DNA of 64,000 bases from NCBI RefSeq assembly GCF_019041915.1, contig NZ_JAHPYF010000001.1:496001-560000 (forward strand), in the 5' to 3' direction. The notes beneath the pieces were generated by a model. The model saw only the letters and a list, made by a program, of their open reading frames with translations, searched no databases and was not told the DNA's origin. The DNA is from Collinsella sp. MSK.8.10. Its GTDB lineage: Bacteria > Actinomycetota > Coriobacteriia > Coriobacteriales > Coriobacteriaceae. Numbering within the stretch: the stretch's first letter is position 1; each line of letters opens with the position of its first letter. Made by a program: the position numbers and the translations under genes. Shown here in pieces: positions 33,590 to 59,686 of the stretch.

Positions 33590-33596
33590 AAATGTA

Positions 33597-36261: not shown

Positions 36262-36431
36262 CAACGCCGCAGGTAGAGGACGGACAGCGAGCGACGTCCA
36301 GAGCGAACAAGTTGGCATGAAAAAGGCAAGGCATAGACCTTCTGGTCATGCCTTGCCTTTTGAATGACAAATTGTCGCTCTGGACGTCGAGCAGCGTCGG
36401 CCCGTTACGCGGTTTGGTAAAACCGCGTAAC
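36262..36431. repeat. Covarying palindromic element family D, copy 1
   Basis: Outer stem GCGACGTCCAGAGCGA (36291-36306) with 36375-36389; inner terminator-like hairpin AAAAGGCAAGGCAT... paired with ...ATGCCTTGCCTTTT (36321-36361) around ACCTTCTGGT; second hairpin GTTACGCGGTTT/AAACCGCGTAAC at 36404-36431, overlapping the hspR stop codon by one base. Other copies are at 41641-41739, 56103-56243 and 59547-59686. Confidence 0.85.
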
Positions 36432-36847
36432 TACAAATCCCCGCCGGCGCCCAGCAGCTTGCGCATGACTTGCTCGGGGTTAACTGAGCCGTCGCGCGGG
36501 GCCAGGGCGGTGATCTTCTTTTGCATCTTGTACTCGTGCAGCTCGTCCTCGAGCTGGCGTACGCGGGCGCGGAGCTTCTCGTTCTCGCGTTCGCGCTCCT
36601 CGGCACGCTCCTTCATATCGAGGATGCGCACCACGCCGGCGAGGTTGATGCCCTCGTCGGTCAGTTGGTTGATGAGCTCCAGGCGCTCGATATCGGCACG
36701 CGAATACAGACGCGTGTTGCCGCCCGAGCGCTGGGGATTCACCAAGCCTTTGGACTCGTAGACGCGCAGAGTCTGCGGGTGCATGCCGGTCAGCTCGGCC
36801 GCCACGCTGATCATGTACAGCGGTTTGTTCCTATTGTCCTCGGCCAT
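36431..36847 (-). CDS. hspR: Heat-shock repressor HspR (MerR family)
   Basis: A 138-residue MerR-type protein. The HTH is in YMISVAAELTGMHPQTLRVY (residues about 11-30) followed by SGGNTRLYSRADIERLELIN; a coiled coil (ERERENEKLRARVRQLEDEL) serves for dimerisation. As the last gene of dnaK-grpE-dnaJ-hspR it represses the operon together with DnaK in Actinobacteria. The 27-bp motif upstream of dnaK and clpB is its probable target. Confidence 0.92.
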   Translation of the reverse strand: MAEDNRNKPLYMISVAAELTGMHPQTLRVYESKGLVNPQRSGGNTRLYSRADIERLELINQLTDEGINLAGVVRILDMKERAEERERENEKLRARVRQLEDELHEYKMQKKITALAPRDGSVNPEQVMRKLLGAGGDL

Positions 36848-36919
36848 GCTACCTGACCCCTTTCCGTCTCGTTATCGTCCATCATAAGCCCGTGGGCGCG
36901 GGCGTGCGCCGCGACCGCC

Positions 36920-37885
36920 CTAGTACGTCGCCTTGTAACGGTTGACCTTCTCGCGATAGTCGCGTGTGTCGGTCTCGCGCAGCTTGGTCATGGCATCGCG
37001 CTCGTCATCGGATAGGTTCGTGGGGACCTGCACCTTGATCTCGACGAGCAGCGCGCCTGTGCGGCCACGGTGCTTAACGTCGGGCGCCCCCATTTCCTTA
37101 AAGCGGAACTTCTTGCCCGTCTGGGTACCCGCGGGCACCTTCAGACGAACCGTCGCACCGCCGGGCGTCGGCACGTCCACCGTGCAGCCGAGCGCCGCCT
37201 CGTAGACCGAGACCGGTACCTCCATGGTCACGTCGGCACCTTTGCGCTTAAACAGCGGGTGCTCCTCCACATGCGTGGTCACGACCAGGTCGCCGCGCTC
37301 GCCACCCGCAACGCCATACTCGCCGCGACGCTTGTAGCGCAGCTTGCCGCCGTCGACCGCACCCGCAGGCACCGAGACCGTAATGGTCTGCTGCTCACCT
37401 GTCGAGGGAATGCGATAGGTGACCTTGTGCGTCACACCGCGAAACGCGTCCTCGGCCGTCACATCGACGGTCAGCGACAGGTCGCCGCCCTTGCGAGCAC
37501 GGCTGCGGCCAGCGCCGGCACCGGCAGCGCCCGCAGCCCCGGCAAAGCCCGAGCCCCAATCGCTGCCCCAGGCGCCGTTGCCGCTAAAGATGCTGTCGAA
37601 GATGTCGCCCCAGCCGCTGGCACCCGCGCCGGCACCGTAGCCGCCGCCATACGCGCCGCCCGCGCCCGGCATACCGCCAAACATGAGCATCTGGTCGTAC
37701 TCTTTGCGCTTCTTCTCGTCCGAAAGCGTCTCATAGGCCTCGCTGATCTCCTTAAACTTGGCCTCGTCGCCGCCGGCATCGGGGTGATATTTTTGCGCGA
37801 GCTTGCGAAACGCGCTCTTGATCTCTTTGTCGGAGGCGCTCTTGGATACGCCCAGGATGTCATAGAAGGTTTTGCCTGCAGCCAT
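36920..37885 (-). CDS. dnaJ: DnaJ/CbpA-type co-chaperone (321 aa)
   Basis: J domain [20 protein letters not shown] with the HPD in KYHPDAGG (residues about 34-41), then a Gly-rich linker with [20 protein letters not shown] and the C-terminal substrate-binding domains. The central CxxCxGxG zinc repeats of classical DnaJ are absent, so it is a type II (CbpA-like) J-protein. It activates DnaK ATPase. Start at 37885 rather than at an upstream Met, as it follows GGAGAGGAG. A hairpin separates it from grpE. Confidence 0.92.
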
Positions 37886-37957
37886 CGTAGCTCCTCTCCT
37901 GTTACGTCCGCCGTCCATGCAGACGACGGCTCATGCTTTCATATGGCACTAGGCCAG

Positions 37958-37989
37958 AAAGGGCCCCGGGTGTTGCCCCGGGGCCCTTC
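37958..37989 (-). terminator. Hairpin between grpE and dnaJ
   Basis: GGGCCCCGGG pairs with CCCGGGGCCC; on the minus strand it is followed by TTTCTGG. It is a partial terminator or stabilising hairpin within the operon. Confidence 0.6.
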
Positions 37990-37993
37990 TCAA

Positions 37994-38836
37994 TTACTCC
38001 TCGGTGCTCTCGGCCGTATCGGCCGCAGCATCCTCGGGCGCCGCTTCGGGCTCCGGTGCGGGGCGCTTCTCGCCACCGTAGGTCACCGTCACCATCGCGG
38101 AACGCAGGATGCGGTCCGCCATGCGGTAGCCCTTCTGGTACACGTCGTTGACGGTCTCGTCGTACTGCGACGCGTCCTCGACGCGACCCACGGCCTGGTG
38201 CTCGAGCGGATCGAACGCCTCGCCCTTGGGGTCGATGGGCTCAACGCCCTCGTGCGCAAACACATCGAGCAGCTTGGCATGCACCGCGTCGACGCCGTCG
38301 ACGAACTGCTTAAAGTCGTCGGCAAGCTCCTGGCTGCGGGCATGGTCGATCGCACGCTCGATATCATCGACCACCGGCAGCAGCGCGGTGACGAGCTTCT
38401 CGGTCGCGCGCTCGCGCTCGGCGATACGCTCATTGGCGGTGCGGCGACGGAAGTTCTCCCAGTCGGCCTGAAGACGGGCGGTACGCTCAGTGGCGTCCTT
38501 TGCCTTGTCCTCGGCGGCCTTCTGAGCCTCTGCCGCAGCATCGAGCTCATTGCGCACGTCGGCGAGCTCCTTTTGGGCCTGCTCGAACTTGAGCTTAAAG
38601 TCGTTGTCGGCGGCTTCCTCACCGGCGCGGATAGCGGCTTCCACCATCTCGTCCTCGGTCATCGTCGCCTCCTTGTTGGAATCCTCTACCTGGTTCTCGG
38701 CAGCCTCGGCGGCCGCGGCCTCGTTGGCCTCGGTATCGTCGACGGCCTCTACGGGAATCTTCACGTCCTTCTCCTCAGAGTCAACGGGGGCGGCACCAAC
38801 GGCGGCCGCCTCCGTGCGAGCTTTACGGGCGGACAT
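37994..38836 (-). CDS. grpE: Nucleotide exchange factor GrpE
   Basis: The 280-residue protein has an unusually long acidic N-terminal extension (about 105 residues) before the helical dimer region (KLKFEQAQKELADVRNELDA). The C-terminal β-domain carries GEAFDPLEHQAVGRVED and TVNDVYQKGYRMADRILRSA, the GrpE signature. It releases ADP from DnaK. The start MSARKARTEAAAVGA lies two bases after the dnaK stop. Confidence 0.95.
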   Translation of the reverse strand: MSARKARTEAAAVGAAPVDSEEKDVKIPVEAVDDTEANEAAAAEAAENQVEDSNKEATMTEDEMVEAAIRAGEEAADNDFKLKFEQAQKELADVRNELDAAAEAQKAAEDKAKDATERTARLQADWENFRRRTANERIAERERATEKLVTALLPVVDDIERAIDHARSQELADDFKQFVDGVDAVHAKLLDVFAHEGVEPIDPKGEAFDPLEHQAVGRVEDASQYDETVNDVYQKGYRMADRILRSAMVTVTYGGEKRPAPEPEAAPEDAAADTAESTEE

Positions 38837-38838
38837 GA

Positions 38839-40731
<1,893 letters not shown>

Positions 40732-40840
40732 TAGAAATTCCCTCTCTCTTGTGCGTTTGCACCGACTCGGCGGTCTGCCGAGCGGTGTTTCGGCTTGTCT
40801 TTCAGGATGTAGTGTATCCCCTTATGGGCCGGAATATACA

Positions 40841-40867
40841 AAATCTAAGTCAATTCATATAAGATTT
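40841..40867. promoter_or_regulatory. Candidate HspR site at dnaK
   Basis: AAATCTAAGTC, five bases, ATATAAGATTT, identical in both 11-mers to the site at clpB, 110-136 bases upstream of dnaK. It differs from the HAIR consensus (CTTGAGT-N7-ACTCAAG) of other Actinobacteria. Confidence 0.7.
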
Positions 40868-40991
40868 CTTATTGCTGAGAGTTTAGGTTCTTAAATGTGC
40901 AGGTAGATGCGCTGATTGAGTTCTCGGCAAATCTATCGAGATCTATGTAGAGATGGCTGAGGCTTGGGTCCGAGGGTGCCTGGGGCTGCCT

Positions 40992-41105
40992 TGCGGAAAG
41001 CTCGTCCCGTTTTGAGAGCTGATACCGGGTCGCAGTTTCCGCTAGCGGGCCCAACCGGAAACTACGACCCGGTTTTCGGCCAAATAACGGGATGCCCTTT
41101 CCGCA
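40992..41105. repeat. Long inverted repeat (family G)
   Basis: TGCGGAAAG (40992) pairs with CTTTCCGCA (41097), and ACCGGGTCGCAGTTTCCG (41024) with CGGAAACTACGACCCGGT (41056), in a 114-bp palindrome. The minus-strand open frame across it has no protein character and is not called. Confidence 0.8.
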
Positions 41106-41326
41106 GGCGCGCTCAATAGCTCGATATTTCAAGTCACCTTTAGCTAACATTTGCGCAGCTCAACGGCCCCACCTGCGCATTTTTTAGTAAACCTTGGCAT
41201 ACTCGGCGAACGGTATGAAGATGCCGGTCAGAGGGTATTGCAAACGGTCGCTCCCGTGGTATGTTTTTGCCCGAATCAAACCGGCGCGCATCGCCTGTAG
41301 CGTCGGTCAACAGAGAGGAAACTACC

Positions 41327-41512
41327 ATGGCTCATCCCGTAATTGATGCCGACGAGTGCATCGCTTGTGGCGTTTGCGTCGACTCCTGCCCCGCTGGCGT
41401 TCTGGAGCTCCAGGACGTCGCTACCGTCGCTGACGAGGACTCCTGCGTCGCCTGTGGCGCTTGCCAGGACGCTTGCCCCGCTGGCGCGATCACCGAGATC
41501 GTCGAGGAGTAA
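41327..41512 (+). CDS. 2[4Fe-4S] ferredoxin (61 aa)
   Basis: Two CxxCxxC(x3)CP motifs: CIACGVCVDSCPAGV and CVACGACQDACPAGA. Clostridial-type ferredoxin; transfers low-potential electrons. Start MAHPVIDADE at 41327 after AGAGAGGAAA. A strong terminator follows. Confidence 0.95.
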   Translation: MAHPVIDADECIACGVCVDSCPAGVLELQDVATVADEDSCVACGACQDACPAGAITEIVEE

Positions 41513-41547
41513 CAACTCCCCCACTTGCACACTCAAAAGTACACCGT

Positions 41548-41595
41548 GCACAAAAAGGAGGCCTCCGCATCGCCGCGGAGGCCTCCTTTTTGTGC
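41548..41595 (+). terminator. Ferredoxin terminator (bidirectional)
   Basis: Perfect stem from AAAAAGGAGGCCTCCGC (part of a 21-bp arm) to GCGGAGGCCTCCTTTTT, loop ATCGCC, with A-run before and T-run after. Confidence 0.92.
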
Positions 41596-41640
41596 GGATA
41601 ACTAATTTGGCACCGTCGCAGGTTGAGCCCACGTCAGCGA

Positions 41641-41739
41641 AAACGTCCCTAAGCGAGCAAGGTGACGTGAAAGAGGAGGGAAGCGTACTTTGGGTACGCG
41701 ACCGACGATTGAACGTCAGATTGCCGCTTAGGGGCGTTT
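41641..41739. repeat. Covarying palindromic element family D, copy 2
   Basis: Outer stem AAACGTCCCTAAGCG with CGCTTAGGGGCGTTT (one G-U), inner GACGTG...CACGTC-type pairing (GGTGACGTGAAA and TTGAACGTCAGATTG), hairpin GCGTAC-TTTG-GGTACGC at 41683-41699; ten bases past the niaR stop. Confidence 0.8.
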
Positions 41740-41749
41740 GCAGCGTCGG

Positions 41750-42295
41750 CTAAGAGAGATCGTCTTCGTAGGGCATCAGGTCTGCTAGGTAGCCTTTTTC
41801 CTTGAGCATCGCCTCGATCTCGTCGAGGGTCTGTTCGTCCTCCGCCGCAATGCGATGGAAGTGGTAGCCGCTGGTCACCGTCAGCAGCGGGAAGCTCTTG
41901 CCGCTCTCGATATCGCGCAGATAGCGCTCAACATCGCGACGATTGCGGATGTCCAGGTCGGCCGTGATCTTACCGTACACGCGGTGATTGACGATCACGT
42001 TGAGCACGGCGCCTCCGGCGTCGACGATACTCGTGAGCTCATCGCCTGCCTGCTCCACGCTGTGGCGAACCTTGACCAAGCGCGTGGGCACGGCGGGGCT
42101 GCTGGGGGCCTCCTGCAGCACGTAGCCGCGGTTGGTCGCCACGATATCGTGCCCATCGGCGCGCAGCAGGGCGATGTCCTGCACCACGACCTGGCGGCTC
42201 ACACCCACCTCGCGGGCAAGCGCGCTGCCCGAAACTGGCCCCTTGGCTCCCTCGAGCACGGCCATGATGGCACGGCGACGCTCGCGGGCGTCCAT
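41750..42295 (-). CDS. niaR: Niacin-responsive repressor NiaR (HTH_11-3H)
   Basis: The 181-residue protein has a DeoR-like N-terminal HTH (RRRAIMAVLEGAKGPVSGSA and REVGVSRQVVVQDIALLRAD) and a C-terminal 3H domain whose His residues (VKVRHSVEQ, VNHRVYGKI, GYHFHRI) bind metal and niacin. It represses NAD-synthesis genes. It lies with nadC, nadB and nadA, and a 44-bp palindrome upstream of nadA is its likely operator. The TAATG-type junction with nadC puts it in the same operon. Confidence 0.9.
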   Translation of the reverse strand: MDARERRRAIMAVLEGAKGPVSGSALAREVGVSRQVVVQDIALLRADGHDIVATNRGYVLQEAPSSPAVPTRLVKVRHSVEQAGDELTSIVDAGGAVLNVIVNHRVYGKITADLDIRNRRDVERYLRDIESGKSFPLLTVTSGYHFHRIAAEDEQTLDEIEAMLKEKGYLADLMPYEDDLS

Positions 42296-43155
42296 TATTT
42301 ACCGTCCAGCAGACGCAGGTGCTTAAGCGAGAGGTCGAGAATCGGCGCAGAGTGCGTCAATGCCCCCGAGCTAATGTAGTCGACGCCCAGATCAGCCAGG
42401 GCGCGGATATTGCTGGCATCCACATTGCCCGAGCACTCGGTCTTGGCGCGACCGGCGATAAGCTCTATGGCGGCGGCCATGTCGTCATGGGTCATGTTGT
42501 CGAACATGATGATATCGGCGCCGGCCTCCACAGCCTCGCGCACCATGTCCAGGTTCTCGCACTCGATCTCGACCGTCGTGGTAAACGATGCATGGGCGCG
42601 CGCCATCTCGATCGCACGCGTCACGCCACCGGCGGCATCGATGTGGTTGTCCTTGAGCATGACGGCCGTCGACAGGTTGTAGCGGTGGTTGCTGCCGCCG
42701 CCGATCTCGACCGCCGCCTTCTCAAACACGCGCATGCCCGGCGTGGTCTTGCGCGTGTCGACGAGCACGGTCTTGGTGCCCTCGAGCGCCGCGGCCATGC
42801 TGTGCGTGTAGGTAGCGATGCCGCTCATGCGCTGCAGGTAGTTGAGCGCCACGCGCTCGCCCGAAAGCAGCACGCGCGCATCGCCGCGCACCTGACCCAC
42901 ATGGTCGCCGGCGTGCACCTCGTCACCGCCGGCAACGTCGAACAGCACCGAGCTCTGCGAATCCAACAGCTCAAAGGTGCGGGCGAACACATCCAAGCCG
43001 GCGATGATGCCGTCGGCCTTGGCGATAAGCTCAACGGTAGCGGGACGCGCCGTGGGGCACACGCTCGCCGTGCTCACGTCCTCAAACGTGATGTCCTCGC
43101 GCAGAGCCTGCAAAATCAGATCATCGACGACGAGCTTCATGGTAATGGGATTCAT
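42295..43155 (-). CDS. nadC: Nicotinate-nucleotide pyrophosphorylase
   Basis: Quinolinate phosphoribosyltransferase, 286 residues: ARVLLSGERVALNYLQRMSG near residue 92, TRKTTPGMRVFEKAAVEIGG near 135, KDNHIDAAGG, and EIECENLDMVREAVEAGADI. Converts quinolinate and PRPP to nicotinate mononucleotide. The stop lies at the niaR start, three bases after nadB. Confidence 0.97.
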   Translation of the reverse strand: MNPITMKLVVDDLILQALREDITFEDVSTASVCPTARPATVELIAKADGIIAGLDVFARTFELLDSQSSVLFDVAGGDEVHAGDHVGQVRGDARVLLSGERVALNYLQRMSGIATYTHSMAAALEGTKTVLVDTRKTTPGMRVFEKAAVEIGGGSNHRYNLSTAVMLKDNHIDAAGGVTRAIEMARAHASFTTTVEIECENLDMVREAVEAGADIIMFDNMTHDDMAAAIELIAGRAKTECSGNVDASNIRALADLGVDYISSGALTHSAPILDLSLKHLRLLDGK

Positions 43156-43158
43156 GGT

Positions 43159-44535
43159 CTACTCCTCCACGGCCTGCGTGCCGGCGGCACGGGCCAAATC
43201 ATCGATTGCCAGGATGTCGGCGCTCAGGGCGCGATGACGGCCATCGAGCGCGGGATCGCCCGCCTGCTCCACGGCCAGTGACTCGCCGGTACGCATATAC
43301 CACGCGGCGCGACGACCCCAGACCAGCGCTTCGAGCAGGCTGTTTGATGCAAGGCGATTCTTGCCGTGAACGCCGTTGCAGGCCGTCTCGCCCGCGGCGT
43401 AGAGCTCGGGCATCGAGGTGCGGCCGTCCTTATCGACCCATACGCCACCCATAAAGTAGTGCTGCGTGGGCGTAACGGGGATGGGCTCGTCCAAGATGTC
43501 GCGGCCGTCCTCAAGGCAGCGCGCGCGAATGTTGGCAAAATGCCCGGTCACCACATCGCGTTCGACGGGGGCGAAGCTCAGCCACTCGTGCTCGGTACCG
43601 TCCTGCTTCATCTGCTCGCGAATAGCGGCGGCGACCACATCACGCGGCTGAAGCTCGTCGGTAAAGCGCTCGCCGGCGGCGTTGAGCAAAATCGCGCCCT
43701 CGCCGCGGCAGCTCTCGCTGATCAGGAAGGTGCGGCCCGGCTGCGGCGAGAACAGTCCCGTGGGGTGGATCTGCACGTAGTCCAGGTGCTCCATCTTAAT
43801 GCCATGCTCCTGAGCGATGTAGCAGGCATCGCCCGTGAGCTGCGGATAGTTGGTCGAGTGGTCGTATACGCCACCGATGCCGCCCGTCGCCCACAGCGTG
43901 TGGCGGGCATGGATCTTAAACGGCTCGCCGGCATGCACGCCCTCGGCAGCATTTGCCAGCTCGTCGGCAGGACGAACCGAGTTGGCCTCGTCCACGGAAA
44001 CGGCGACGACACCGGCACACACCGTGGCGCCGTCACGCTCGCCCGTCAGGATATCGGTCATGGCCACGTGCTCCAAAATCTGCACGTTATCCAGCTTGCG
44101 AACGGCCTGGAGCAGCTTGGTCGTAATCTCCTTGCCGGTGATATCGGCATGGAAGGCAATGCGCGGACGGCTGTGCGCGCCCTCGCGGGTAAAGTCGAGG
44201 CTGCCGTCGGCCTTGCGCTCAAAATCCACGCCCAGCGCTAGCAGGTCGTTGATGACCGAACGGCTCGAGCGGATCATGATGTCGACGCTCTCACGGCGAT
44301 TCTCGTAATGACCGGCGTGCATGGTGTCCTCAAAGAAGGCATCGTAGTCCGATCCCTCAGGCAGCACGCAGATGCCGCCCTGCGCGAGCATCGAATCGCA
44401 CTCGTCGACAGCGCCCTTGGAGAGCATGATCACACGCGTGCTCGTCGGCAGATTGAGGGCCGCGTACAGGCCTGCCACGCCGCAGCCGGCAATGACGACG
44501 TCGCACTCCATATCGGGGTATTGCTTGGTTTCCAC
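43159..44535 (-). CDS. nadB: L-aspartate oxidase
   Basis: FAD-binding start METKQYPDMECDVVIAGCGV (GTG at 44535, with an AAAGGATT site), then GLYAAL; the substrate blocks SRPRIAFHADITGKEITT-type (here EGAHSRPRIAFHADITGKEI) and HPTGLFSP, SESCRGEGAIL. 458 residues, shorter than the E. coli enzyme (540), missing part of the C-terminal helical domain. Oxidises aspartate to iminoaspartate for NadA. The upstream open frame is shadow of nadA. Confidence 0.95.
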   Translation of the reverse strand: METKQYPDMECDVVIAGCGVAGLYAALNLPTSTRVIMLSKGAVDECDSMLAQGGICVLPEGSDYDAFFEDTMHAGHYENRRESVDIMIRSSRSVINDLLALGVDFERKADGSLDFTREGAHSRPRIAFHADITGKEITTKLLQAVRKLDNVQILEHVAMTDILTGERDGATVCAGVVAVSVDEANSVRPADELANAAEGVHAGEPFKIHARHTLWATGGIGGVYDHSTNYPQLTGDACYIAQEHGIKMEHLDYVQIHPTGLFSPQPGRTFLISESCRGEGAILLNAAGERFTDELQPRDVVAAAIREQMKQDGTEHEWLSFAPVERDVVTGHFANIRARCLEDGRDILDEPIPVTPTQHYFMGGVWVDKDGRTSMPELYAAGETACNGVHGKNRLASNSLLEALVWGRRAAWYMRTGESLAVEQAGDPALDGRHRALSADILAIDDLARAAGTQAVEE

Positions 44536-44552
44536 AGGAATCCTTTCCCTTG

Positions 44553-44585
44553 AATGTGACAAAGGGACTGTCCCTTTGTCACATT
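44553..44585. repeat. Perfect 33-bp palindrome between nadA and nadB
   Basis: AATGTGACAAAGGGAC and GTCCCTTTGTCACATT separated by one T. It lies three bases past the nadA stop and 17 bases before nadB. Similar to family C in containing GGGAC/GTCCC. Confidence 0.85.
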
Positions 44586-44588
44586 GTT

Positions 44589-45614
44589 CTAGCGCGCTGC
44601 GTACTCGAGCATGCGGTCGAGCGTGAGTTTGGCCTGGTCGGCAGCCTCGTCCGACACGCCGATCTGCACCTCGCCCTCGCCCGTCTCCAGGCAGCGCACG
44701 AGCTTTTCGAGCGTGATGAGATCCATGTTGACGCAGGTGGGCTGCACCGCGGGGAAGTAGAACTTCTTGCCGGTGCCCCGGCAGCGGCGCTCGAGCTCGT
44801 AGAGCACGCCGCGGACCGTCACGATAATGAACTCGCTCGCGTCGGACTCCTCGGCATACCTGATGATGCCGGCGGTGGAGCCGATGTAGTCGGCCTCGGC
44901 CAGAACGTCGGCCTTGCACTCGGGGTGCGCCAGCACGAGCGCGTCGGGGTGGGCCTCCGTCGCGTCGACGATCTGCTCGACGGTGATGATGTGATGGCGT
45001 GGGCAGTAGCCGTTGTTGAGGATGACGTGCTTTTGCGGCACCTGCTCGGCTACGAAGCGTCCCAGGTTTTGGTCGGGAATGAACAGGATATGCTGCTGCG
45101 GCAGCTCGGACACGATCTTAACGGCGTTGGAACTGGTGACGCACACGTCGCTCCAGCTCTTGATCTCGACCGTGGAGTTGACGTAGCAGACCACGGCAAG
45201 GTCGTCACCGTACTCGGCGCGCGCCGCGTCGACCGTCTCACGCTTGACCATGTGCGCCATGGGGCAGTCCGCGCCCGGCTCGGGCAGCAGCACGGTCTTG
45301 GTGGGGCTGAGCAGCTTGGCACTCTCGCCCATAAACTCCACGCCGCACAGCACGATGGTCTGCTGCGGCAGGCTCTTGGCAAGCTTTGCCAGGTAAAAGC
45401 TGTCGCCGACGTAATCAGCCACGGCCTGTACCTCGGGCGCCACGTAATAGTGCGCTAGGATCACCGCGTCACGTTGGGTTTTTAGTTGTTGAATGGCCTC
45501 GACAAGCTCTGCGGGCACCAGTGCCGCGCGCTCCGTTGCCGTCGTTGCCGATGCTAGGCCGGCCGCGATATCGCGTGCAAGCTCCGACGCATCCATGTTC
45601 GCGCTCTGTGCCAT
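44589..45614 (-). CDS. nadA: Quinolinate synthase A
   Basis: 341 residues. ILAHYYVAPEVQAVADYVGD near residue 53, CGVEFMGESAKLLSP, PEPGADCPMAHMV, and C-terminal cysteine QPTCVNMDLITLEKL hold the 4Fe-4S cluster ligands. Makes quinolinate from iminoaspartate and DHAP. First gene of the nad operon. The ATG at 45614 is preferred over a TTG before it. Confidence 0.97.
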   Translation of the reverse strand: MAQSANMDASELARDIAAGLASATTATERAALVPAELVEAIQQLKTQRDAVILAHYYVAPEVQAVADYVGDSFYLAKLAKSLPQQTIVLCGVEFMGESAKLLSPTKTVLLPEPGADCPMAHMVKRETVDAARAEYGDDLAVVCYVNSTVEIKSWSDVCVTSSNAVKIVSELPQQHILFIPDQNLGRFVAEQVPQKHVILNNGYCPRHHIITVEQIVDATEAHPDALVLAHPECKADVLAEADYIGSTAGIIRYAEESDASEFIIVTVRGVLYELERRCRGTGKKFYFPAVQPTCVNMDLITLEKLVRCLETGEGEVQIGVSDEAADQAKLTLDRMLEYAAR

Positions 45615-45649
45615 CAAGGCCCCTCTCTTTTGGCGAATCTTGGGGCTTT

Positions 45650-45678
45650 AGTATGACACCTAGGTTTACAGCTGACAA
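45650..45678 (-). promoter_or_regulatory. nadA promoter
   Basis: TTGTCA (45678-45673), 17 bases, CATACT (45655-45650) on the minus strand, inside the palindromic operator. Confidence 0.6.
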
Positions 45679-45699
45679 GACAGCTGTAAACCTAGGTGT
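45656..45699. promoter_or_regulatory. Probable NiaR operator
   Basis: A perfect 44-bp palindrome: ACACCTAGGTTTACAGCTG (45656-45674), six bases, CAGCTGTAAACCTAGGTGT (45681-45699). It overlaps the -35 element and spacer of the nadA promoter. Confidence 0.8.
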
Positions 45700-49474: not shown

Positions 49475-49475
49475 C

Positions 49476-49988: not shown

Positions 49989-50007
49989 CGGGATTTCCCG
50001 CAGCGCA

Positions 50008-50087
50008 CCTGCCAAAAAGGGACAGGTTTGTTTTGGCAGGTTTAGAAGTTTTACCTACCAAAATAAACCTGTCCCTTTTTGGTCGGT
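50008..50087. repeat. Palindromic repeat family C
   Basis: Inverted arms with CCAAAAAGGGACAGGTTT pairing to AAACCTGTCCCTTTTTGG. Partial copy at 57848-57892; short related palindrome at 44553-44585. Confidence 0.8.
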
Positions 50088-50105
50088 TTTGATGAGGGGT
50101 GTCGC

Positions 50106-52577: not shown

Positions 52578-52708
52578 GCTGTTCGGCCAGCCCGCAAGCC
52601 GCCGTCTCACAGGTGTAGCGCGTTTGCCCGCAGCGCCCGCGAGCGCTACCATCAACTGATGGATTATTGAGCGCCCGTCCAGCGCAAAGCGTATAAAAGG
52701 GGAACAAT

Positions 52709-52969
52709 ATGTGCCTTGCCGTTCCCGGTAAAGTAGTCAAACGCGACGACGACCTCAAGGCCACCGTCGACATGATGGGCATCGAGCGCCCCGTGTCGCT
52801 GCGACTCGTGCCGACGGCGCAGGTTGGCGACTATATTCTCGTACACGCCGGCTTTGGCATCCAGATCGTCGACGAGCAGGAAGCACAGGAAACGCTCGAG
52901 CTTGTTAATGCCATGTCCGAGCTGGTCGAAGAAGACCAGCTTGCCACCAACCCGGCGGAGGCTTACTAG
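52709..52969 (+). CDS. hypC: Hydrogenase maturation chaperone HypC
   Basis: 86 residues. Begins MCLAVPGKVVKRDDDLKATV with the N-terminal Cys essential for the HypC-HypD Fe(CN)2CO complex, and has YILVHAGFGIQIVDEQEAQE. Shares its last base with hypD. Confidence 0.97.
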   Translation: MCLAVPGKVVKRDDDLKATVDMMGIERPVSLRLVPTAQVGDYILVHAGFGIQIVDEQEAQETLELVNAMSELVEEDQLATNPAEAY

Positions 52970-54081
52970 TGGCGCCCGAACAACCGGCTCGCTCCGGTAT
53001 CGACTTCTCGGCATTCCGCAATCCCAAGCTGGCTCGCGAGCTCATCGAGCGCATTCATGAGCTTGTCGGCGACCGCGCCATCAACCTTATGGAAGTCTGC
53101 GGCACGCATACCGTGAGCATCGGGCGCTATGGCTTTCGCTCCATTATGCCGGCCGGGCTCAAGCTGCTGAGCGGCCCGGGCTGCCCCGTCTGCGTCACCG
53201 CCAACCGCGACATCGACCACGCAATCGCGCTCGCCAACATAGACGGCGCCATCATCACCACCTTTGGCGACATGATGCGCGTGCCCGGATCATCCACCTC
53301 GCTCGCTGCGCAAAAAGCGGCAGGGCGTGACATTCGCATCGTCTACTCCCCGCTCGACGCGCTCGACATTGCCGAGCAAAACCCCGATCGCCCGGTCATT
53401 TTTATGGGCGTGGGCTTTGAGACCACAACGCCCACCATCGCCGCCGCCATCTTGGAGGCCGAAGCGCGCGGGCTTTTGAACTTCTCGGTCTATTGCGCCC
53501 ACAAGACCACGCCGCCGGCGCTGCGCGCCATCGCCAACGATCCCGAGACCGCCATCGACGGCTTTATCCTGCCGGGACACGTCGCCACCATCACGGGCTT
53601 AGCCCCCTTTGGCTTTTTGGTCGACGAGTTCAATACCCCGGGCGTGGTCACAGGATTTGAACCGGTCGATATCCTGCAGGGCATCTGTATGCTGGTCCAG
53701 ATGGTTGTCGAGGACAGGCCCGCAATCGACAACGCCTACCGTCGCGGCGTCAATGCCGACGGCAATCCCGTGGCGCGCCAGCTGGTCGAGCAGGTATTTG
53801 AGCCGTGCGATACCACATGGCGCGGGCTGGGGCTGATTGCCAACTCGGGTCTTTCCATCCGCCCCGAGTTCTCGCGCTTTGATGCCCGTGCTCGCTTTGA
53901 CGTGCCCGTTGAGGCGACGGTCGAGCCGCGCGGGTGCCGCTGCGGCGACGTGCTGCGCGGGGCCATTGCGCCGAGCAGCTGCCCGCTCTTTGGCCGCACC
54001 TGCACGCCCGAGCACCCCGTCGGCCCGTGCATGGTGAGCTCCGAGGGCAGCTGCGCGGCGTACTACCGCTACCGCGACTAG
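52969..54081 (+). CDS. hypD: Hydrogenase iron-ligand assembly protein HypD
   Basis: 370 residues, GTG start overlapping hypC. VCGTHTVSIGRYG, GPGCPVCVT, the C-terminal cysteines RGCRCGDVLRGA and CPLFGRTCTPEHP bind the 4Fe-4S cluster and iron. Scaffold for Fe(CN)2CO. Confidence 0.97.
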   Translation: MAPEQPARSGIDFSAFRNPKLARELIERIHELVGDRAINLMEVCGTHTVSIGRYGFRSIMPAGLKLLSGPGCPVCVTANRDIDHAIALANIDGAIITTFGDMMRVPGSSTSLAAQKAAGRDIRIVYSPLDALDIAEQNPDRPVIFMGVGFETTTPTIAAAILEAEARGLLNFSVYCAHKTTPPALRAIANDPETAIDGFILPGHVATITGLAPFGFLVDEFNTPGVVTGFEPVDILQGICMLVQMVVEDRPAIDNAYRRGVNADGNPVARQLVEQVFEPCDTTWRGLGLIANSGLSIRPEFSRFDARARFDVPVEATVEPRGCRCGDVLRGAIAPSSCPLFGRTCTPEHPVGPCMVSSEGSCAAYYRYRD

Positions 54082-54129
54082 CCCGGACACACCCACACAC
54101 CGGCACCACCCACGATTGGAGTTTTCGAT

Positions 54130-55164
54130 ATGTCCCGTACTGCCACCGATAGCACCGTCCTGTTGGGCCACGGCTCTGGCGGTCAGATGATGAAACGCAT
54201 CATCGATGAGGTCTTTCTGGATGCATTTGGGTCGCCCGAGCTGCTCGAAGGCAACGACGCCGGCGTCGCCGCGCTGCCCGCGAGCGGGCGCATAGCCATG
54301 TCGACTGACAGCTTTGTAGTCTCGCCGCAGTTCTTCCCCGGTGGCAACATCGGCCGCCTCGCCGTGTGCGGAACCGTTAACGACGTCGCGACCTCGGGCG
54401 CCAACGTGCGCTACCTGTCGTGTGGCTTTATCCTCGAAGAGGGCTATCCCATGGATAAGCTCCACCAGATTGTGCAGACGATGGCCGAGACAGCACGTGA
54501 GGCGGGCGTGTCCATAATCACGGGCGACACCAAGGTGGTCGAGCGCGGCGGGGCCGACGGCGTCTACATCAATACCGCCGGCGTGGGCGAGGTTCCCACG
54601 GGCGTGGCGCTCAGCGGCGCCAACTGCCAGCCCGGCGACGTTATCCTGGTGTCGGGCACACTGGGTGACCACGGTATCGCCATCATGAGCCAACGCGAGG
54701 GCCTGGCGTTTTCGAGCACGATCGAAAGCGATGCCGCGCCGCTCAACCACCTGATTGCCGACGTTCTGGCCGCAGCGCCCGGCACGCGTTGCTTTCGCGA
54801 CCCCACGCGCGGTGGCCTGGCGTCCACACTCAACGAGTTTGCCCAGGCCAGCAATGTTGCCATGGAGGTCGACGAAGATGCCGTGCCCGTGCGTCCCGAC
54901 GTGCAGGCCGCCTGCGAGATGCTCGGCTACGATGTGCTGCAGGTGGCAAACGAGGGCAAGATGGTTGCCGTCGTGCCGGCCGAGCAAGCCGATGCCGCGC
55001 TAGCCGCCATGCGCGCCGCCCGCTACGGCGAGAATGCCGCCATCATCGGTCGCGTGCTGCCACTTGCCGAGGATGCCCGTCCCGCCGTGCGCGTGCGCAC
55101 CGGCTGGGGCTCGACCCGCATCCTCGACATGCTCGTGGGAGAGCAGCTGCCGAGGATTTGCTAG
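54130..55164 (+). CDS. hypE: Hydrogenase maturation protein HypE
   Basis: 344 residues, AIR-synthase-like fold with LLGHGSGGQMMKRII and VNDVATSGANVRYL. Ends LGEQLPRIC-type (here VGEQLPRIC), the C-terminal Cys that carries thiocyanate. Starts 49 bases after hypD. Confidence 0.97.
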   Translation: MSRTATDSTVLLGHGSGGQMMKRIIDEVFLDAFGSPELLEGNDAGVAALPASGRIAMSTDSFVVSPQFFPGGNIGRLAVCGTVNDVATSGANVRYLSCGFILEEGYPMDKLHQIVQTMAETAREAGVSIITGDTKVVERGGADGVYINTAGVGEVPTGVALSGANCQPGDVILVSGTLGDHGIAIMSQREGLAFSSTIESDAAPLNHLIADVLAAAPGTRCFRDPTRGGLASTLNEFAQASNVAMEVDEDAVPVRPDVQAACEMLGYDVLQVANEGKMVAVVPAEQADAALAAMRAARYGENAAIIGRVLPLAEDARPAVRVRTGWGSTRILDMLVGEQLPRIC

Positions 55165-55268
55165 CGACAAAGGCTCAGGGCTATTAAAGATATTCAGATT
55201 CCAAACATGCCCGGCACGCATGCCCAGTATCATGGGGTGCGTTTTGGAACCCAATGACGGGAGCTTTC

Positions 55269-55937
55269 ATGGCAGCAGCTTTTTCCCATGTGATCTTTGA
55301 CCTGGACGGCACCATCCTCAACACGCTCGAGGACCTGGCGGCCGCCGGCAACCATACCTGCGAGATGCACGGCTGGCCCACGTTTGCCGTCGACGAGTAC
55401 CGCTACAAGGTGGGAAACGGCATGCTCAAGCTCGTCGAACGCTTTATGCCTGCCGAATATGCGGGCGACGGTCGCATGTTTGAGCAGACGCTTGCCGAGT
55501 TTAGGGCTTACTACGGCGAGCACAAGGAGGACCACACCGCCCCCTATGCCGGTACAATCGAGATGCTCGACCGCCTACGCGCCGCGGGCGTTCAGCTTGC
55601 CGTGCTCACCAACAAGGACCACGTCTCGGCGGCTCCGCTTATCGAGAAGTATTTTGGTTCCGAGCGCTTTGCGCTGGTACAGGGCCGTGTCGATGCGTTT
55701 CCGCCCAAGCCCGAAGCACCCGTTACGCTACATGTGATGGAAAAGCTGGGCGCCAATCCGGCAACCACGCTCTATGTGGGCGATTCCAATGTCGATATCC
55801 TGACCGGCCACAACGCCGGCCTTAAGAGCGCGGGCGTCAGCTGGGGCTTCCGCGGCCGCGCAGAGCTGGAAGCCGCCGGCGCCGACTACGTGGTGGACAC
55901 CCAGGCAGAGCTCGCGGCGCTGATTCTGGGCGAGTAA
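55269..55937 (+). CDS. gph: HAD phosphatase, phosphoglycolate-phosphatase-like
   Basis: 222 residues: FDLDGTILNTLEDL (nucleophile Asp), VLTNKDH, PKPEAP and YVGDSNVDILTG. Cap domain type C1. Cleaves phosphoglycolate or a related sugar phosphate. Start MAAAFSHVIFDLDG at 55269 after GGGAG. Confidence 0.85.
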   Translation: MAAAFSHVIFDLDGTILNTLEDLAAAGNHTCEMHGWPTFAVDEYRYKVGNGMLKLVERFMPAEYAGDGRMFEQTLAEFRAYYGEHKEDHTAPYAGTIEMLDRLRAAGVQLAVLTNKDHVSAAPLIEKYFGSERFALVQGRVDAFPPKPEAPVTLHVMEKLGANPATTLYVGDSNVDILTGHNAGLKSAGVSWGFRGRAELEAAGADYVVDTQAELAALILGE

Positions 55938-55985
55938 CGCTGGTGCTGCTCAACCCAGCCGTCGCAATACCGTTGCGCGGAAAGT

Positions 55986-56065
55986 AGTCGTTGGGGACGT
56001 TCTTAAACGACTAGTCAAACAAGAACGTCACCAACGACTAGTCATTTAAGAACATCCCCAATGAC
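55986..56065. repeat. Palindromic repeat family I
   Basis: AGTCGTTGGGGACGTTCTTA mirrored by TAAGAACATCCCCAATGACT, with GACTAGTC in the middle. Related words at 36208-36238 and 59431-59463. Confidence 0.75.
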
Positions 56066-56102
56066 TGCCATGACAACGCCGATGTTTTGGCAACGACAGC
56101 GA

Positions 56103-56243
56103 GCGGTCACCAGAGCGAACAAATTGGCATGAAAAGAGGGCGGCATTGACCTTCTGGTCATGCCGTCCTCTTTGAATGACAAGTTGTCGCTCTGGTGACC
56201 GCGCAGCGTCGAGCAGTTGCGGCGTTTGGTAAAACGCCGCAAC
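56103..56243. repeat. Covarying palindromic element family D, copy 3
   Basis: Outer stem GCGGTCACCAGAGCGA with TCGCTCTGGTGACCGC (16 bp, different from copy 1 but still fully paired), inner GAGGGCGGCATTGACC with GGTCATGCCGTCCTC, second hairpin GTTGCGGCGTTT/AAACGCCGCAAC, four bases from the lipoprotein stop. Confidence 0.85.
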
Positions 56244-56246
56244 GAA

Positions 56247-56804
56247 CTAGCTCAGCATTGCATCCATCATCTCGGAGTTGACGGAGTCGTCGGCAGACCA
56301 CTCACCGTCGTCGTTGCAGGTGTACTTGAAGATAACCGTGGTCTTCCTGGGCTCGGTGGCCTTGGTCACATCGACCATAACCTGACCGGCCATCTTGTAC
56401 AGCTCGTCATCGGAAGGAACCGTGTCAAGCGCGGCAACCTTCTCCTGATACTGGGTGGAGAAGTCCTCGACGATCTTGTTCATGGACTTGCAGGTGATGG
56501 AGACCTCGGCGGTCGCGACACCCTTGTCTTCGTCGACCGTCACGTCGCCGATCTTGTAGTCAAAGCCCTCGAGATAGGTCTTGGCATACTCCTTGGGATC
56601 GATACCCAGCTGCTCGAACTCGTCGCCCGAAGCCTCCTCCAGACCAGAGAGGAAGTCGTCGCCACCGTTCTTGACCTCGTCAAACTGCGTCGTAAGATCC
56701 TCGGTGATGAGCTCCTCAACCGAAGGACCTCCACAGCCGGAAAGCACGACCACGCATGCAACCAAGACGGCCATGAGGGGCGCAAGCAGCAGCTTCTTTT
56801 TCAT
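56247..56804 (-). CDS. Lipoprotein of unknown function (185 aa)
   Basis: Signal MKKKLLLAPLMAVLVACVVV with lipobox LSGC (Cys about residue 24), then an acidic exported domain with repeated structure (EVSITCKSMNKIVEDF). Resembles DUF5105-type lipoproteins. Start after GGGAGG. Confidence 0.8.
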   Translation of the reverse strand: MKKKLLLAPLMAVLVACVVVLSGCGGPSVEELITEDLTTQFDEVKNGGDDFLSGLEEASGDEFEQLGIDPKEYAKTYLEGFDYKIGDVTVDEDKGVATAEVSITCKSMNKIVEDFSTQYQEKVAALDTVPSDDELYKMAGQVMVDVTKATEPRKTTVIFKYTCNDDGEWSADDSVNSEMMDAMLS

Positions 56805-56984
56805 GTTGTTCCTCCCAATGAGCGGCACCGCGCTTCCCGGACGCGGCACACGTTGTAATAAGTAAGCCCATACTATCCACTTATGAACACCCTCGGCAAC
56901 GCGAAGGCGTGGTCGGTTCGTTTTAGCGTCCGAACGGTTTGCAAGCCCGCCCAACGTGCAATAAAACGCTTCCCCACGGTGCAA

Positions 56985-57015
56985 TAAAAAAGGTGGCCGG
57001 AAAACCCGACCACCC
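56985..57015 (-). terminator. crr terminator
   Basis: Minus strand: GGTGGTCGGG-TTTT-CCGGCCACC followed by TTTTTTATT, 26 bases past the crr stop. Confidence 0.85.
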
Positions 57016-57040
57016 TTGCACATCCTTTGGACGCCGCAGT

Positions 57041-57577
57041 TTACTTGCGGACGACCTTGACGATGGCGTCACCGGCGGCGACGGCGGACTCTGCCTCAAC
57101 GGTGAGCTCGACATCGGCAAACTCGGCGGTGTTGGACACGGCCACGACGACGCAGTCCTTGTAACCGGCAGCGGCGATCTTGGCGCGGTCGATCTTGAGT
57201 ATGGGCTGGCCAGCCTTCACAACGTCGTCGGCCTTGACGAAGCCCTCGAAGCCATCGCCGTTCATGTTGACGGTATCGACGCCAACGTGCACCAGAACCT
57301 CGATGCCGCTATCGGACTGCAGACCCACGGCGTGACCCATGGTGACGGTCACCTTACCGTCGCAGGGAGCGTAGACCAGATCGTCCTCGGGCCACACGGC
57401 ACAGCCCTTGCCCAGAACCTCGCCACCAAAGACGGGATCGGGCACGTCGGCCATCTTGATGACCTTGCCCTTGACGGGCGAGCACAGCACGTCGGCGCCA
57501 GCAGAAGCAGAGATGGAGGCCGGAGCAGCGGCAGCCGCGGGCTCAGCCTTCTTCTTGAACATGTCAAACAGACCCAT
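57041..57577 (-). CDS. crr: PTS glucose-type IIA component
   Basis: 178 residues: MGLFDMFKKKAEPAAAAAPA, then SPVKGKVIKMADVPDPVFGG and the active His in GIEVLVHVGVDTVNMNGDGF (around residue 105). Passes phosphate from HPr to glucose-class IIB domains. Start at 57577 after GAGGAGAAAA; upstream frame is shadow. Confidence 0.95.
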   Translation of the reverse strand: MGLFDMFKKKAEPAAAAAPASISASAGADVLCSPVKGKVIKMADVPDPVFGGEVLGKGCAVWPEDDLVYAPCDGKVTVTMGHAVGLQSDSGIEVLVHVGVDTVNMNGDGFEGFVKADDVVKAGQPILKIDRAKIAAAGYKDCVVVAVSNTAEFADVELTVEAESAVAAGDAIVKVVRK

Positions 57578-58090
57578 ATGTTTTCTCCTCTTGATTAAGC
57601 GCAACGTTGTGCGCATGCCTACGGTAATTATAGTGCCAAATGGTTCAAATGCTAAGGTGGGGACTCGAATCGCGAGCCCTTCCCGGTAGTGTTCGTGGGG
57701 CGAGCATCTCCTTTGCATCGCGGGTCGATAAGCCGAGTATCGCCTGCACACGGGACGGGCAGAAGCGGGCGCACCAAACCCGATACTTCTTTTCGCTCTC
57801 GAGTCCTGCCGCCGCCCCGTCCCTGACACTTCCTGATACCGACCGAAACGTGCCAAAATAAACCCGTCCCTTTTTGGTAGGTTTGGCGAGTGTGGATTTT
57901 CGGACGCTTAACTAACGAGCGTGGATAATCTCCCACTTTGACTTTGAGGCCGTCACCGAGCCAAAAACGGGAGATTATCCACGTTCATTTTGGATGACCC
58001 CCTTGTACCAAGCCGAGCTCCATGGTCAAGTAATAACGACTTCTCATCATTAGATTGTTTACATGAATTCTAATAACTATTTAATCCTTA
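57578..58090. other. Region between crr and fic
   Basis: No gene. Contains a half-copy of family C (57848-57892), family H copy 1 (57917-57986) and AT-rich DNA with TAATAACGA half-sites before the fic operator. Confidence 0.5.
57917..57986. repeat. Palindromic repeat family H, copy 1
   Basis: GAGCGTGGATAATCTCCC (57917-57934) pairs with GGGAGATTATCCACGTTC (57969-57986). Copy 2 (59359-59422) has the same orientation on the other side of fic. Confidence 0.85.
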
Positions 58091-58132
58091 AACTCGTTAT
58101 TAGAATTGATATGATTAGCCTAATAACGAGTT
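58091..58132. promoter_or_regulatory. Palindromic operator upstream of fic
   Basis: AACTCGTTATTAG (58091-58103) and CTAATAACGAGTT (58120-58132) form a perfect 13-bp inverted repeat; further TAATAACGA-type half-sites lie at 58033 and 58067. Likely target of an autoregulator, perhaps Fic itself through its C-terminal winged helix. Confidence 0.65.
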
Positions 58133-58159
58133 TCCGGCACTAAAGATATGGAGGGCGCG

Positions 58160-59332
58160 ATGCAAATCGAGGAGAACGGCCAGGGAACGCTCCGCAATAA
58201 TCTATCGGGGAAATTGGCTTACTATTCGTTTTTTCCAACGCCCTTGCAATCATTGAGGCAGCTAAACCTCACCGAGGAAACCTATCGCACGCTTTCCGCA
58301 TGCTCACGAAAGCTTGGAGAGCTTGAAGGCATGCTCTACTTTGTTCCCAACGCCGACATGTATCTGACAATGTACGTGCGCAAAGAAGCACTCCTTTCTT
58401 CGCAAATTGAGGGAACCCAGTGCACGTTTGACGACCTACTTAGTCCATCGCAAACACAACTCCATCATAAAGATGTCGCAGACGTCGTGAATTACGTCCG
58501 TGCTGTCGACCGCGGCGTAGAACTGCTCAAAAAGATGCCCTTGTGCACGAGACTTCTTAGGCAAGTTCATGCGGTCTTGCTGGACGGAGTGCGCGGAACG
58601 GAGAAGAATCTAGGCGAACTGCGCTCCTCACAAAACTGGATTGGCCCCTCAGGCTGCACCATTGCAACCGCATCGTTTGTCCCTCCAAACATTGAAGATT
58701 TGAGTAACACGCTCCAGGACCTCGAACGCTTTATCAATGAGCCTCAAGTCGAAATGGATCCGATTGTGCGGGCGGCGCTCGTCCATTACCAATTTGAAAT
58801 TGCCCATCCATTCCTAGACGGAAACGGTCGCCTGGGCAGGCTTCTCATTACACTTATGCTCATCAATGATGGCGTTCTTCATTCTTGCTTGTTCTATCCA
58901 TCGTTCCAGTTCAAGAAAAATCGAAGCGAGTACTACCGGCAACTCACATCCGTAAGGGAGAGAGGCACTTACGAGGAATGGATAGAGTTTTTCTGCAACA
59001 GTCTTCTCGAGAGTGCGGAGGACTCGGTAGGGTCTTTAAAAAACCTTGTTGACCTCCATAACCGTTCCACAGCAACCATTACCGAAAATCTCGGAAGGAC
59101 TGCTGCAAACGGGCAAAGGCTGTTGGGCATTCTTGAAGAGCACCCCATCGTCGACACCGCATTCATCGCTGCCCAACTCGATATCGGCAGGAGTACCGCG
59201 AGCTCGCTCGTCAAATCATTTGAAGAATTGGGTATCCTCCGTCCGCTCGACGAGTCAAGACAGAGATACCGGCAGTACGGGTATGAAGAGTATCTTTCGA
59301 TTCTCAGGGAAGACGCCGAGCCGATTAGATAG
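58160..59332 (+). CDS. fic: Fic-family adenylyltransferase (390 aa)
   Basis: The active motif HPFLDGNGRLGRLLI is near residue 220. The N-terminal inhibitory helix has SSQIEGTQCTF near residue 86, so this is a class II Fic that restrains itself; a C-terminal winged helix (DIGRSTASSLVKSFEELGIL) can bind DNA. Codon use is less GC-rich than the neighbours, suggesting transfer. Start at 58160 after GGAGGGCGC. No clear antitoxin gene is adjacent. It AMPylates a target protein, unidentified. Confidence 0.9.
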   Translation: MQIEENGQGTLRNNLSGKLAYYSFFPTPLQSLRQLNLTEETYRTLSACSRKLGELEGMLYFVPNADMYLTMYVRKEALLSSQIEGTQCTFDDLLSPSQTQLHHKDVADVVNYVRAVDRGVELLKKMPLCTRLLRQVHAVLLDGVRGTEKNLGELRSSQNWIGPSGCTIATASFVPPNIEDLSNTLQDLERFINEPQVEMDPIVRAALVHYQFEIAHPFLDGNGRLGRLLITLMLINDGVLHSCLFYPSFQFKKNRSEYYRQLTSVRERGTYEEWIEFFCNSLLESAEDSVGSLKNLVDLHNRSTATITENLGRTAANGQRLLGILEEHPIVDTAFIAAQLDIGRSTASSLVKSFEELGILRPLDESRQRYRQYGYEEYLSILREDAEPIR

Positions 59333-59358
59333 GCATCGCAACCCAGGCAAATTAAAGC

Positions 59359-59422
59359 GAGCGTGGATAATCTCCCACTTTGAGCCTGCACACAGGCCAA
59401 AAACGGGAGATTATCCACGCTC
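59359..59422. repeat. Palindromic repeat family H, copy 2
   Basis: GAGCGTGGATAATCTCCC pairs with GGGAGATTATCCACGCTC; 27 bases after the fic stop. Confidence 0.85.
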
Positions 59423-59430
59423 ATTCCTGA

Positions 59431-59463
59431 GTAGTCATTTATGAACGTCCCCAATGACTAGTC
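59431..59463. repeat. Family I repeat
   Basis: GTAGTCATTTATGAACGTCC then CCAATGACTAGTC, as at 36208 and 56035. Confidence 0.6.
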
Positions 59464-59546
59464 CGGCAACGCCGATGTTTCGGCAACGACAGCGAGCGAG
59501 CCGCATTCGGAGCAAGACGACGCCGCAGGTAGAGAACGGACAGCGA

Positions 59547-59686
59547 GCGGGTCGCATTTGAGACAAGGTGACGTGAAACGAAAGGGCGCTGACCTTCTGG
59601 TCGCGCCCTTGAAGTTGAACGTCAGATTGTCCAAATGCGGCCCGCGCAGCGTCGAGCAGTTACGGCGTTTGGTAAAACGCCGTAAC
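59547..59686. repeat. Covarying palindromic element family D, copy 4
   Basis: Outer stem GCGGGTCGCATTTGAGACAA (from 59547) with TTGTCCAAATGCGGCCCGC (to 59645), inner AAAGGGCGCTGACC with GGTCGCGCCCTT, second hairpin GTTACGGCGTTT/AAACGCCGTAAC overlapping the pyrE stop. A 5' partial repeat lies at 59471-59546. Confidence 0.85.

Follow-up and report, generated by a model that had tools for sequence, protein, structure and literature searches.

A long irregular hairpin element flush with stop codons in Collinsella and related Coriobacteriia

Results

A long irregular hairpin occurs four times, as a preliminary description made from the letters of the sequence had reported, in a 64,000-nucleotide (nt) stretch of Collinsella sp. 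MSK.8.10 (contig NZ_JAHPYF010000001.1, positions 496,001 to 560,000; hereafter the window). All four copies are on the minus strand, and a minus-strand gene precedes each of them. We interpret this element, with moderate confidence, as a cis-acting 3′-end module that resembles a terminator, lies flush with the stop codon and has its sequence renewed by template switching and cassette replacement. Read in gene direction, its plan comprises the stop codon, a 28-nt perfect hairpin (GTTNCGNNG...CNNCGNAAC; hairpin A), a short spacer, the motif GACGCTGC, the long irregular hairpin with a terminator-like tip, CTCGCTGNC, and a tail such as GCTCAACCTGCGG. The preliminary description had also noted a shared tip loop and a second hairpin close to the stop codon in three of the copies, and both are borne out: the ACCTTCTGGT loop on a long irregular stem is found in copies c36, c56, and c59, with another tip in c41, and hairpin A is confined to the same three copies, where its distance past the stop is −1, 3, and −1 nt, respectively. 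Coordinates are given in Table 1. Copies c36 and c59, the two that were folded, gave z scores of −10.1 and −9.3 against shuffled sequences. No Rfam 15 family reached its gathering score over the element region of the window, and the Rfam and miRNA-like matches from a permissive scan of c36 were rejected, lying far under the families' cut-offs.

To describe the family we used three covariance models: R1, built from the four window copies (154 positions); R2, built from 44 copies (154 positions); and R3, in which hairpin A is left out (97 positions). Since the genome searches scored limited candidates per genome (52 for R1, 19 for R2 in the order, and 96 for R3 in congeners), all copy numbers are lower bounds. 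In the window, R3 hit the four known copies and nothing else. R1 matched 30 of 58 genomes, and among 35 genomes of the same genus it found at least 33–46 copies in 16 and 0–13 in the other 19. A search of Collinsella congeners with a model of the four copies, the check that the preliminary description had proposed, thus yielded many more copies with the structure kept; its count of four holds for the window and falls far short for a genome. Within the order, R2 found matches in 63 of 158 genomes; these belong to 26 of the 79 genera and mostly to two families (best E value in another family, 3.9e-23). In a sample of the phylum it matched 9 of 198 genomes, eight inside the order and one borderline case outside (E = 2.9e-4). 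R3 matched 40 of 43 congeners; of the 198 phylum genomes it matched eight, none from outside the order. This indicates a larger class, whose members need not have hairpin A or GACGCTGC.

We also scanned a single genome of each species for a pattern that requires hairpin A. This gave at least 120 stretches, of which 80 are named and 120 were analyzed, with at least 123 copies. The named records comprise Collinsella, Gordonibacter, Slackia, Paraeggerthella, Candidatus Aveggerthella, and Aphodovivens, the remainder being labelled Eggerthellaceae, Coriobacteriaceae, or Coriobacteriia. The first 400 kb of genome G059 hold five clear R1 copies; its second 400 kb and the stretches of genome G025 were picked for known copies and give no density estimate.

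The distance to the stop codon varies little. Across the window, G059, and G025, GACGCTGC lies 31–36 nt past the stop where hairpin A is present, or 2–7 nt where it is absent, in 32 of 41 copies. Nine copies do not fit: four come behind a truncated element or its remnant, two represent one orthologous site behind a predicted terminator, and three are unexplained. In the pattern scan, 115 copies have 400 nt upstream (102 distinct upstream 30-mers, as orthologs are included). When frames of 80 codons or more are considered, hairpin A lies −1 to 4 nt past an in-frame stop in 87 of them, and −1 to 7 nt past one in 95. Beyond the 87, the gap is 5–7 nt in eight copies and 18–52 nt in four, and 16 have no frame of that length. 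Frame-walking revealed, in two of these 16, a long gene frame that enters the element: in locus L380 it stops 12 nt into hairpin A, and in L281 directly after hairpin A, with GACGCTGC 2 nt behind the stop. Random positions lay −1 to 4 nt past such a stop in 277 of 14,400 cases, or 516 of 14,380 when drawn outside called frames. R3 matches, mostly without hairpin A, behave similarly: 46 are distinct, 35 have a gene frame, and in 24 of these 35 the stem starts within −5 to +5 nt of the stop, which in several matches lies inside the stem. Ordinary terminator-like hairpins of G059 start 0–3 nt past the stop in only 3 of 81 cases and are commonest at 20–39 nt (35 of 81).

Apart from the inversion described below, orientation is steady. 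In alignment A7 (n = 100), 85 copies are flush with an own-strand gene, two with one on the other strand only, and 13 with neither; in alignment A9 (n = 45), 24 are flush with an own-strand gene and two with one on the other strand only. The stops flanking the 87 flush copies are TAG in 61, TAA in 23, and TGA in three, against a background of 192, 187, and 62 in G059 and the window; because the copies include orthologs, nothing is built here on this preference for TAG. The idea that the element itself creates the stop at c36 was rejected, as element-less species keep a stop behind a similar C-terminus (compared by eye). Two further arrangements were seen in other loci. The element is preceded by a conserved stretch (GTTAGGTAGTGGAATTGTTTTGTGCCTAAC ... 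GTCAAGGTACCAAAC) in L217, L190, L274, L286, and L382, three of which were searched against Rfam with no match, and in L405 (genome G023) three core elements stand in tandem behind one stop codon.

Pairing in the stem is maintained through matching changes on both sides, as the preliminary description had held: 20 of 53 pairs show both-sided change in the four-copy alignment. This rises to 36 of 53 pairs with 44 copies (409 cells vs 125 ± 8 after shuffling) and to 45 of 53 with 101 distinct rows, one of them an antisense match (969 cells vs 297 ± 16); sliding the partners by 1–3 columns in the 101 rows left 82–133 cells. The alignments were fitted to the structure and so lean towards it, the rows are related, and the cells are not independent events. 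The structural claim nevertheless survived the refutation named for it, namely that further copies would lack supported covariation. The outermost stem pairs (CGACGCTG/CTCGCTGTC) hardly vary and are in part G.U, and hence lend no covariation support.

If the gene-strand RNA were the object of selection, one-sided changes should be mostly G.U. Over 100 rows, however, G.U and A.C cells stand at 36:72 in the outer stem and 4:9 in the middle, and at 4:0 in the tip. Column 66 supplies 22 of the outer-stem G.U cells, and columns 58, 64, and 65 supply 44 of the A.C cells, partly as fixed subtype mismatches; without columns 58 and 64–66 the ratio is 13:28 by our own count. The R3 set gives 18:38, and 18 control tRNAs from the loci analyzed give 26:0, called by ARAGORN, which itself favours G.U. 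An RNA-strand wobble bias is thus lacking in the outer stem, whereas hairpin A and the tip lean towards one. Among copies at 90–95% identity, both-sided changes lead one-sided ones by 293:169.

Rearrangement at the DNA level was also seen. At the 3′ end of gyrB in two congeners (L419 and L421) the same element lies in opposite orientations, identical at 100 of 100 nt after inversion and at 64 of 101 without it, and the flank downstream matches at 276 of 280 nt; the palindrome has CTAG at both ends, so the stop is kept on inversion. In L158 the 3′ arm is a copy of the 5′ arm, through the inner loops, as judged from fold and sequence. Among stems of type I, the two outer mismatches are both present (e.g. 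L035), both resolved to the left arm (L167), or half resolved (L106), and in window copy c36 both are resolved to the right arm, with one other mismatch remaining. Template switching between inverted repeats is reported to cause arm homogenization and spacer inversion (PMC8604942).

Stem types also change at fixed sites. Site c56 carries type V in seven of 19 loci with the gene end (L094 being a chimera), type II in six, I in three, IV in two, and one untyped stem. At site c59 (30 loci) we found type IV in 12, II in five, I in two, the core motif only in one, no core in nine, and one cut locus; at site c36 (29 loci), type I in nine, II in four, III in one, the core motif only in five, and no core in 10; and at site c41 (22 loci), type III in eight, the core motif only in three, and no core in 11, although two of these 11 (L063 and L066) have an inner match to type III and merely miss the script's core motif. 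At c56, several relatives differ in the stem but resemble one another in the gene end, hairpin A, and the flank downstream, and the gyrB 3′ end is occupied by different subtypes in eight loci. Within the clade, position is therefore steadier than sequence. Distant congeners often have no core at the window's sites. A separate palindrome, AGTTGCGGTGGAATAGTTCC, occurs at window positions 15082–15122, 18726–18808, and 63636–63723 and in L078, L163, and L178; in L074 it stands right behind GACGCTGC at the c41 site, replacing the stem.

The A.C excess, the in-place inversion, the homogenized arm, and the stem swaps together mean that covariation is no clean proof of RNA selection here; it is produced at least partly by DNA copying. 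The preliminary description had taken compensatory change as a sign of selection. Its covariation holds and the irregular shape is likely selected, but compensation alone is no proof and a DNA process contributes. What argues for selection on the irregular shape itself is that the inner mismatches, which arm copying would erase, are conserved across families, making such selection likely from the sequence comparison.

Upstream genes are ordinary and comprise hspR, a 3H-domain regulator, pyrE, prfA, a pfkB-type kinase, DAHP synthase, an LCP-family gene, gyrB, purH, aspS, rpoC, lysS, nrdD, and aspartate kinase; several of the queries were gene parts, with scores under the full-length cut-off. 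With mechanically called frames, the next gene is co-directional in 13 of 23 copies, convergent in nine, and beyond the locus edge in one, and it lies >100 nt away in 17 of 22. The 10 nt past the tip contain 5.3 T's on the sense side vs 3.3 on the antisense side in A7 (101 rows), and 4.2 vs 2.4 in A9 (50 rows, including a few antisense rows); this sense-side excess fits a terminator.

Table 1. Element copies in the window and the genes upstream of them
Feature	Position	Strand	Remark
c36 hairpin A (GTTACGCGG..CCGCGTAAC)	36404..36431	-	TAG stop ends with its first G
c36 core: GACGCTGC and long irregular hairpin, as far as CGCTCGCTGTC	36291..36398	-	
c36 tip hairpin, then TTTTT on the minus strand (terminator-like)	36325..36357	-	read from sequence
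Gene upstream of c36: HspR-type MerR regulator	36431..36847	-	NF047375 above cut-off
c41 core, without hairpin A	41639..41747	-	GACGCTGC 2 nt past TAG stop
Gene upstream of c41: helix-turn-helix and 3H domain regulator	41750..42295	-	
c56 hairpin A	56216..56243	-	begins 3 nt past TAG stop
c56 core: GACGCTGC and long irregular hairpin	56103..56210	-	
Gene upstream of c56	56247..57023	-	no family match (Pfam, NCBIfam)
c59 hairpin A	59659..59686	-	TAG stop ends with its first G
c59 core: GACGCTGC and long irregular hairpin	59547..59653	-	
Doubled GACAGCGAGCG end beside c59 (59488-59498, 59539-59549)	59488..59549	+	partial second element end
Gene upstream of c59: pyrE (orotate phosphoribosyltransferase)	59686..60366	-	TIGR00336 above cut-off

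Other repeats lie nearby. Palindrome families resembling repetitive extragenic palindromes (REPs) occupy window positions 30466–33304, 36205–36240, 50007–50087, and 55984–56019, some with a GGGGAC motif, and GGGGAC-type repeats flank some genes for REP-associated tyrosine transposases (RAYTs) in related genomes. Two 85-nt direct repeats with 95% identity (32182–32266 and 33510–33594) lie 1328 nt apart. In L166 and L169 of G059, long irregular hairpins of a second family also come after genes; their outer stems vary around a conserved AGTCCTGCGCAAGACG ... CTTTGCGTGCGGAACTC.

Discussion

Judging from its position and tip, the hairpin probably contributes to ending the mRNA or affects a ribosome that has just completed translation. 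In this reading each copy is a cis-acting 3′-end module; it lies directly at a gene's stop codon, usually where the transcription unit ends, and its tip would stop transcription or shield the 3′ end. The base of the hairpin, falling within the footprint of the terminating ribosome, would slow or stall that ribosome, by analogy with Escherichia coli REPs. Stem diversity would arise from template switching during replication and from cassette replacement between copies, while selection would keep the irregular shape. A bolder and unlikely variant has a protein read the conserved inner mismatches, which would couple ribosome release, transcript end, and 3′ decay at one base position in dozens of housekeeping genes across the class, with arm copying at the DNA level continually renewing the stem sequence yet leaving the stem intact.

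Several observations weigh against the cis-acting module. Twenty of the 115 scanned copies lie >7 nt from the stop of any 80-codon frame, among them repeated orthologous sites behind a predicted terminator or unassigned sequence, and 19 of 45 copies in A9 are flush on neither side by script. Some hairpin of at least 10 bp also stands 0–3 nt past the stop in 9 of 103 core-less G059 genes. T runs are short in most types; were termination at the tip efficient, the 3′ arm of the outer stem would be absent from the RNA, and any RNA role for the whole stem would need read-through. On the DNA side, the inversion and the full arm copy are one verified case each, the eight gyrB loci were fetched for holding an element, and the closest copies (≥95% identity, 44 pairs) show one-sided and both-sided changes at 34:15, as plain mutation gives. 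Hairpin A, with 11 G.U to 5 A.C cells in 100 rows, has an RNA-like lean.

That lean, shared by the tip, is one of the points in favour of a functional RNA under ordinary RNA-level selection, whose fold would be needed with nothing special happening to the DNA. Such an RNA would also account for covariation far above the shuffled and slid controls, for the conserved inner loops and bulge, and for presence across the order. The A.C excess of the outer stem, which persists without columns 58 and 64–66 and recurs in the core set, is the reverse of the tRNA control, and neither the in-place inversion at gyrB nor the homogenized arm of L158 is what RNA-level selection predicts; we consider this account quite improbable. 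Another account has ordinary intrinsic terminators of many origins whose likeness reflects convergence on GC-rich hairpins. It fits the tip with its T-rich stretch and the frequent placement at the ends of transcription units, but GACGCTGC, the inner loops, and the tail are common to several genera, and the terminator-like hairpins of G059 mostly lie farther from the stop. Convergence of this kind is already contradicted by the model scores, such as the R2 match in another family, and we judge it highly implausible.

A non-autonomous mobile palindrome, similar to miniature inverted-repeat transposable elements (MITEs) or REPs, deserves more weight, although we still regard it as rather unlikely. 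Some enzyme would insert it beside stop codons, and effects on host genes would be incidental. Copies are abundant in some congeners and nearly lacking in others, nearly identical stem types occur at unlinked sites, stem cassettes are exchanged at fixed sites, and tandem or truncated copies exist. There may also be a direct repeat around c41, where comparison with an empty site shows direct repeats CGACGCTG/CGACGGTG, which may represent a duplication or the scar of a deletion. On the other hand, sites are often common to orthologs, no clean empty site with a target duplication was found, and no enzyme is known to us to recognize in-frame stops. Nor was a matching gene for a mobilizing enzyme found: an R2 search of 20 RAYT loci (L240–L259) at E 0.01 returned no copy of the element. 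RAYT as mobilizer was dropped as unproven, Y1_Tnp (PF01797) matching 37 of 43 congeners, copy-rich and copy-poor alike. The closest RAYT type (≥70% identity) occurs in 21 genomes, each with at least 13 element matches, as any gene of the clade would show; it tracks phylogeny and is absent from the copy-rich genome G007. The mobile palindrome with a self-recognizing end that the preliminary description had offered thus retains the swapping of stems at fixed sites and is left with no enzyme found to move it.

The family gives common gut bacteria of one class an abundant 3′-end element of unusually strict position, which provides many natural replicates for asking if termination is influenced by a stop-flush hairpin. 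The family is in addition a natural case of strong covariation that stems at least partly from DNA arm copying, and as such calls for caution in covariation-based RNA discovery.

Comparison with known systems

Among MITEs, ERIC, Correia, and RUP, together with the mycobacterial MIRU, are palindromes of 100–150 nt and in this respect similar to the present element; MIRU sits at stop/start overlaps. At the present element no terminal repeats accompanied by a clear target duplication were found, the repeats at c41 being ambiguous. Likeness to Rho-independent terminators lies in the GC-rich tip hairpin and the sense-side T-rich stretch, which holds as an average, T runs being short in several types; the long outer stem beyond the tip, the start at the stop codon, the inner loops conserved across the family, and the optional hairpin A are all unlike such terminators. 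A survey of human microbiomes, gut bacteria included, lists 250 palindromic candidate RNAs, 230 of them predicted terminators (PMC8040213). The present element may be among them, although the description of these candidates, in the part of the survey consulted, shows no stop-flush Collinsella family. Quasipalindromes subject to template switching, as far as the portion of the report consulted describes them (PMC8604942), are alike in arm homogenization and spacer inversion, but that is a mutational process rather than a family, and here the inner mismatches stay conserved.

The closest likeness is to REPs and bacterial interspersed mosaic elements (BIMEs), which are likewise high-copy intergenic palindromes beside gene 3′ ends. 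According to the sections consulted of the literature on them, the TAG stop is often contributed by a GTAG REP and the distance of many REPs from the 3′ ends of open reading frames is <20 bp (PMC3733652), and E. coli REPs <16 nt from the stop lower translation, with 446 of 4,072 predicted REPs within 15 nt of it and an earlier study placing 260 of 496 in the translation-regulating group (PMC12306157). By the ≤15-nt limit the present element resembles that functional class, 95 of 115 copies lying within 7 nt. It differs in size, our models having 97–154 positions against 20–40 bp for a REP and stems of 8–9 bp in CGTC families (PMC3733652). Where REPs have a constant unpaired GTAG or CGTC tag at one end, hairpin A is preceded by the stop codon of the gene itself; the RAYT linkage of GTAG REPs has no counterpart in the 20 RAYT loci; and conserved inner mismatches are a further difference. 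A partial literature search, with most subscription journals outside it, found no description of such elements in Coriobacteriia, and we make no claim that they are absent from print. The element belongs with palindromic repeats as a large variant, undescribed in the literature searched, and it is its strict position that sets the family apart from REPs.

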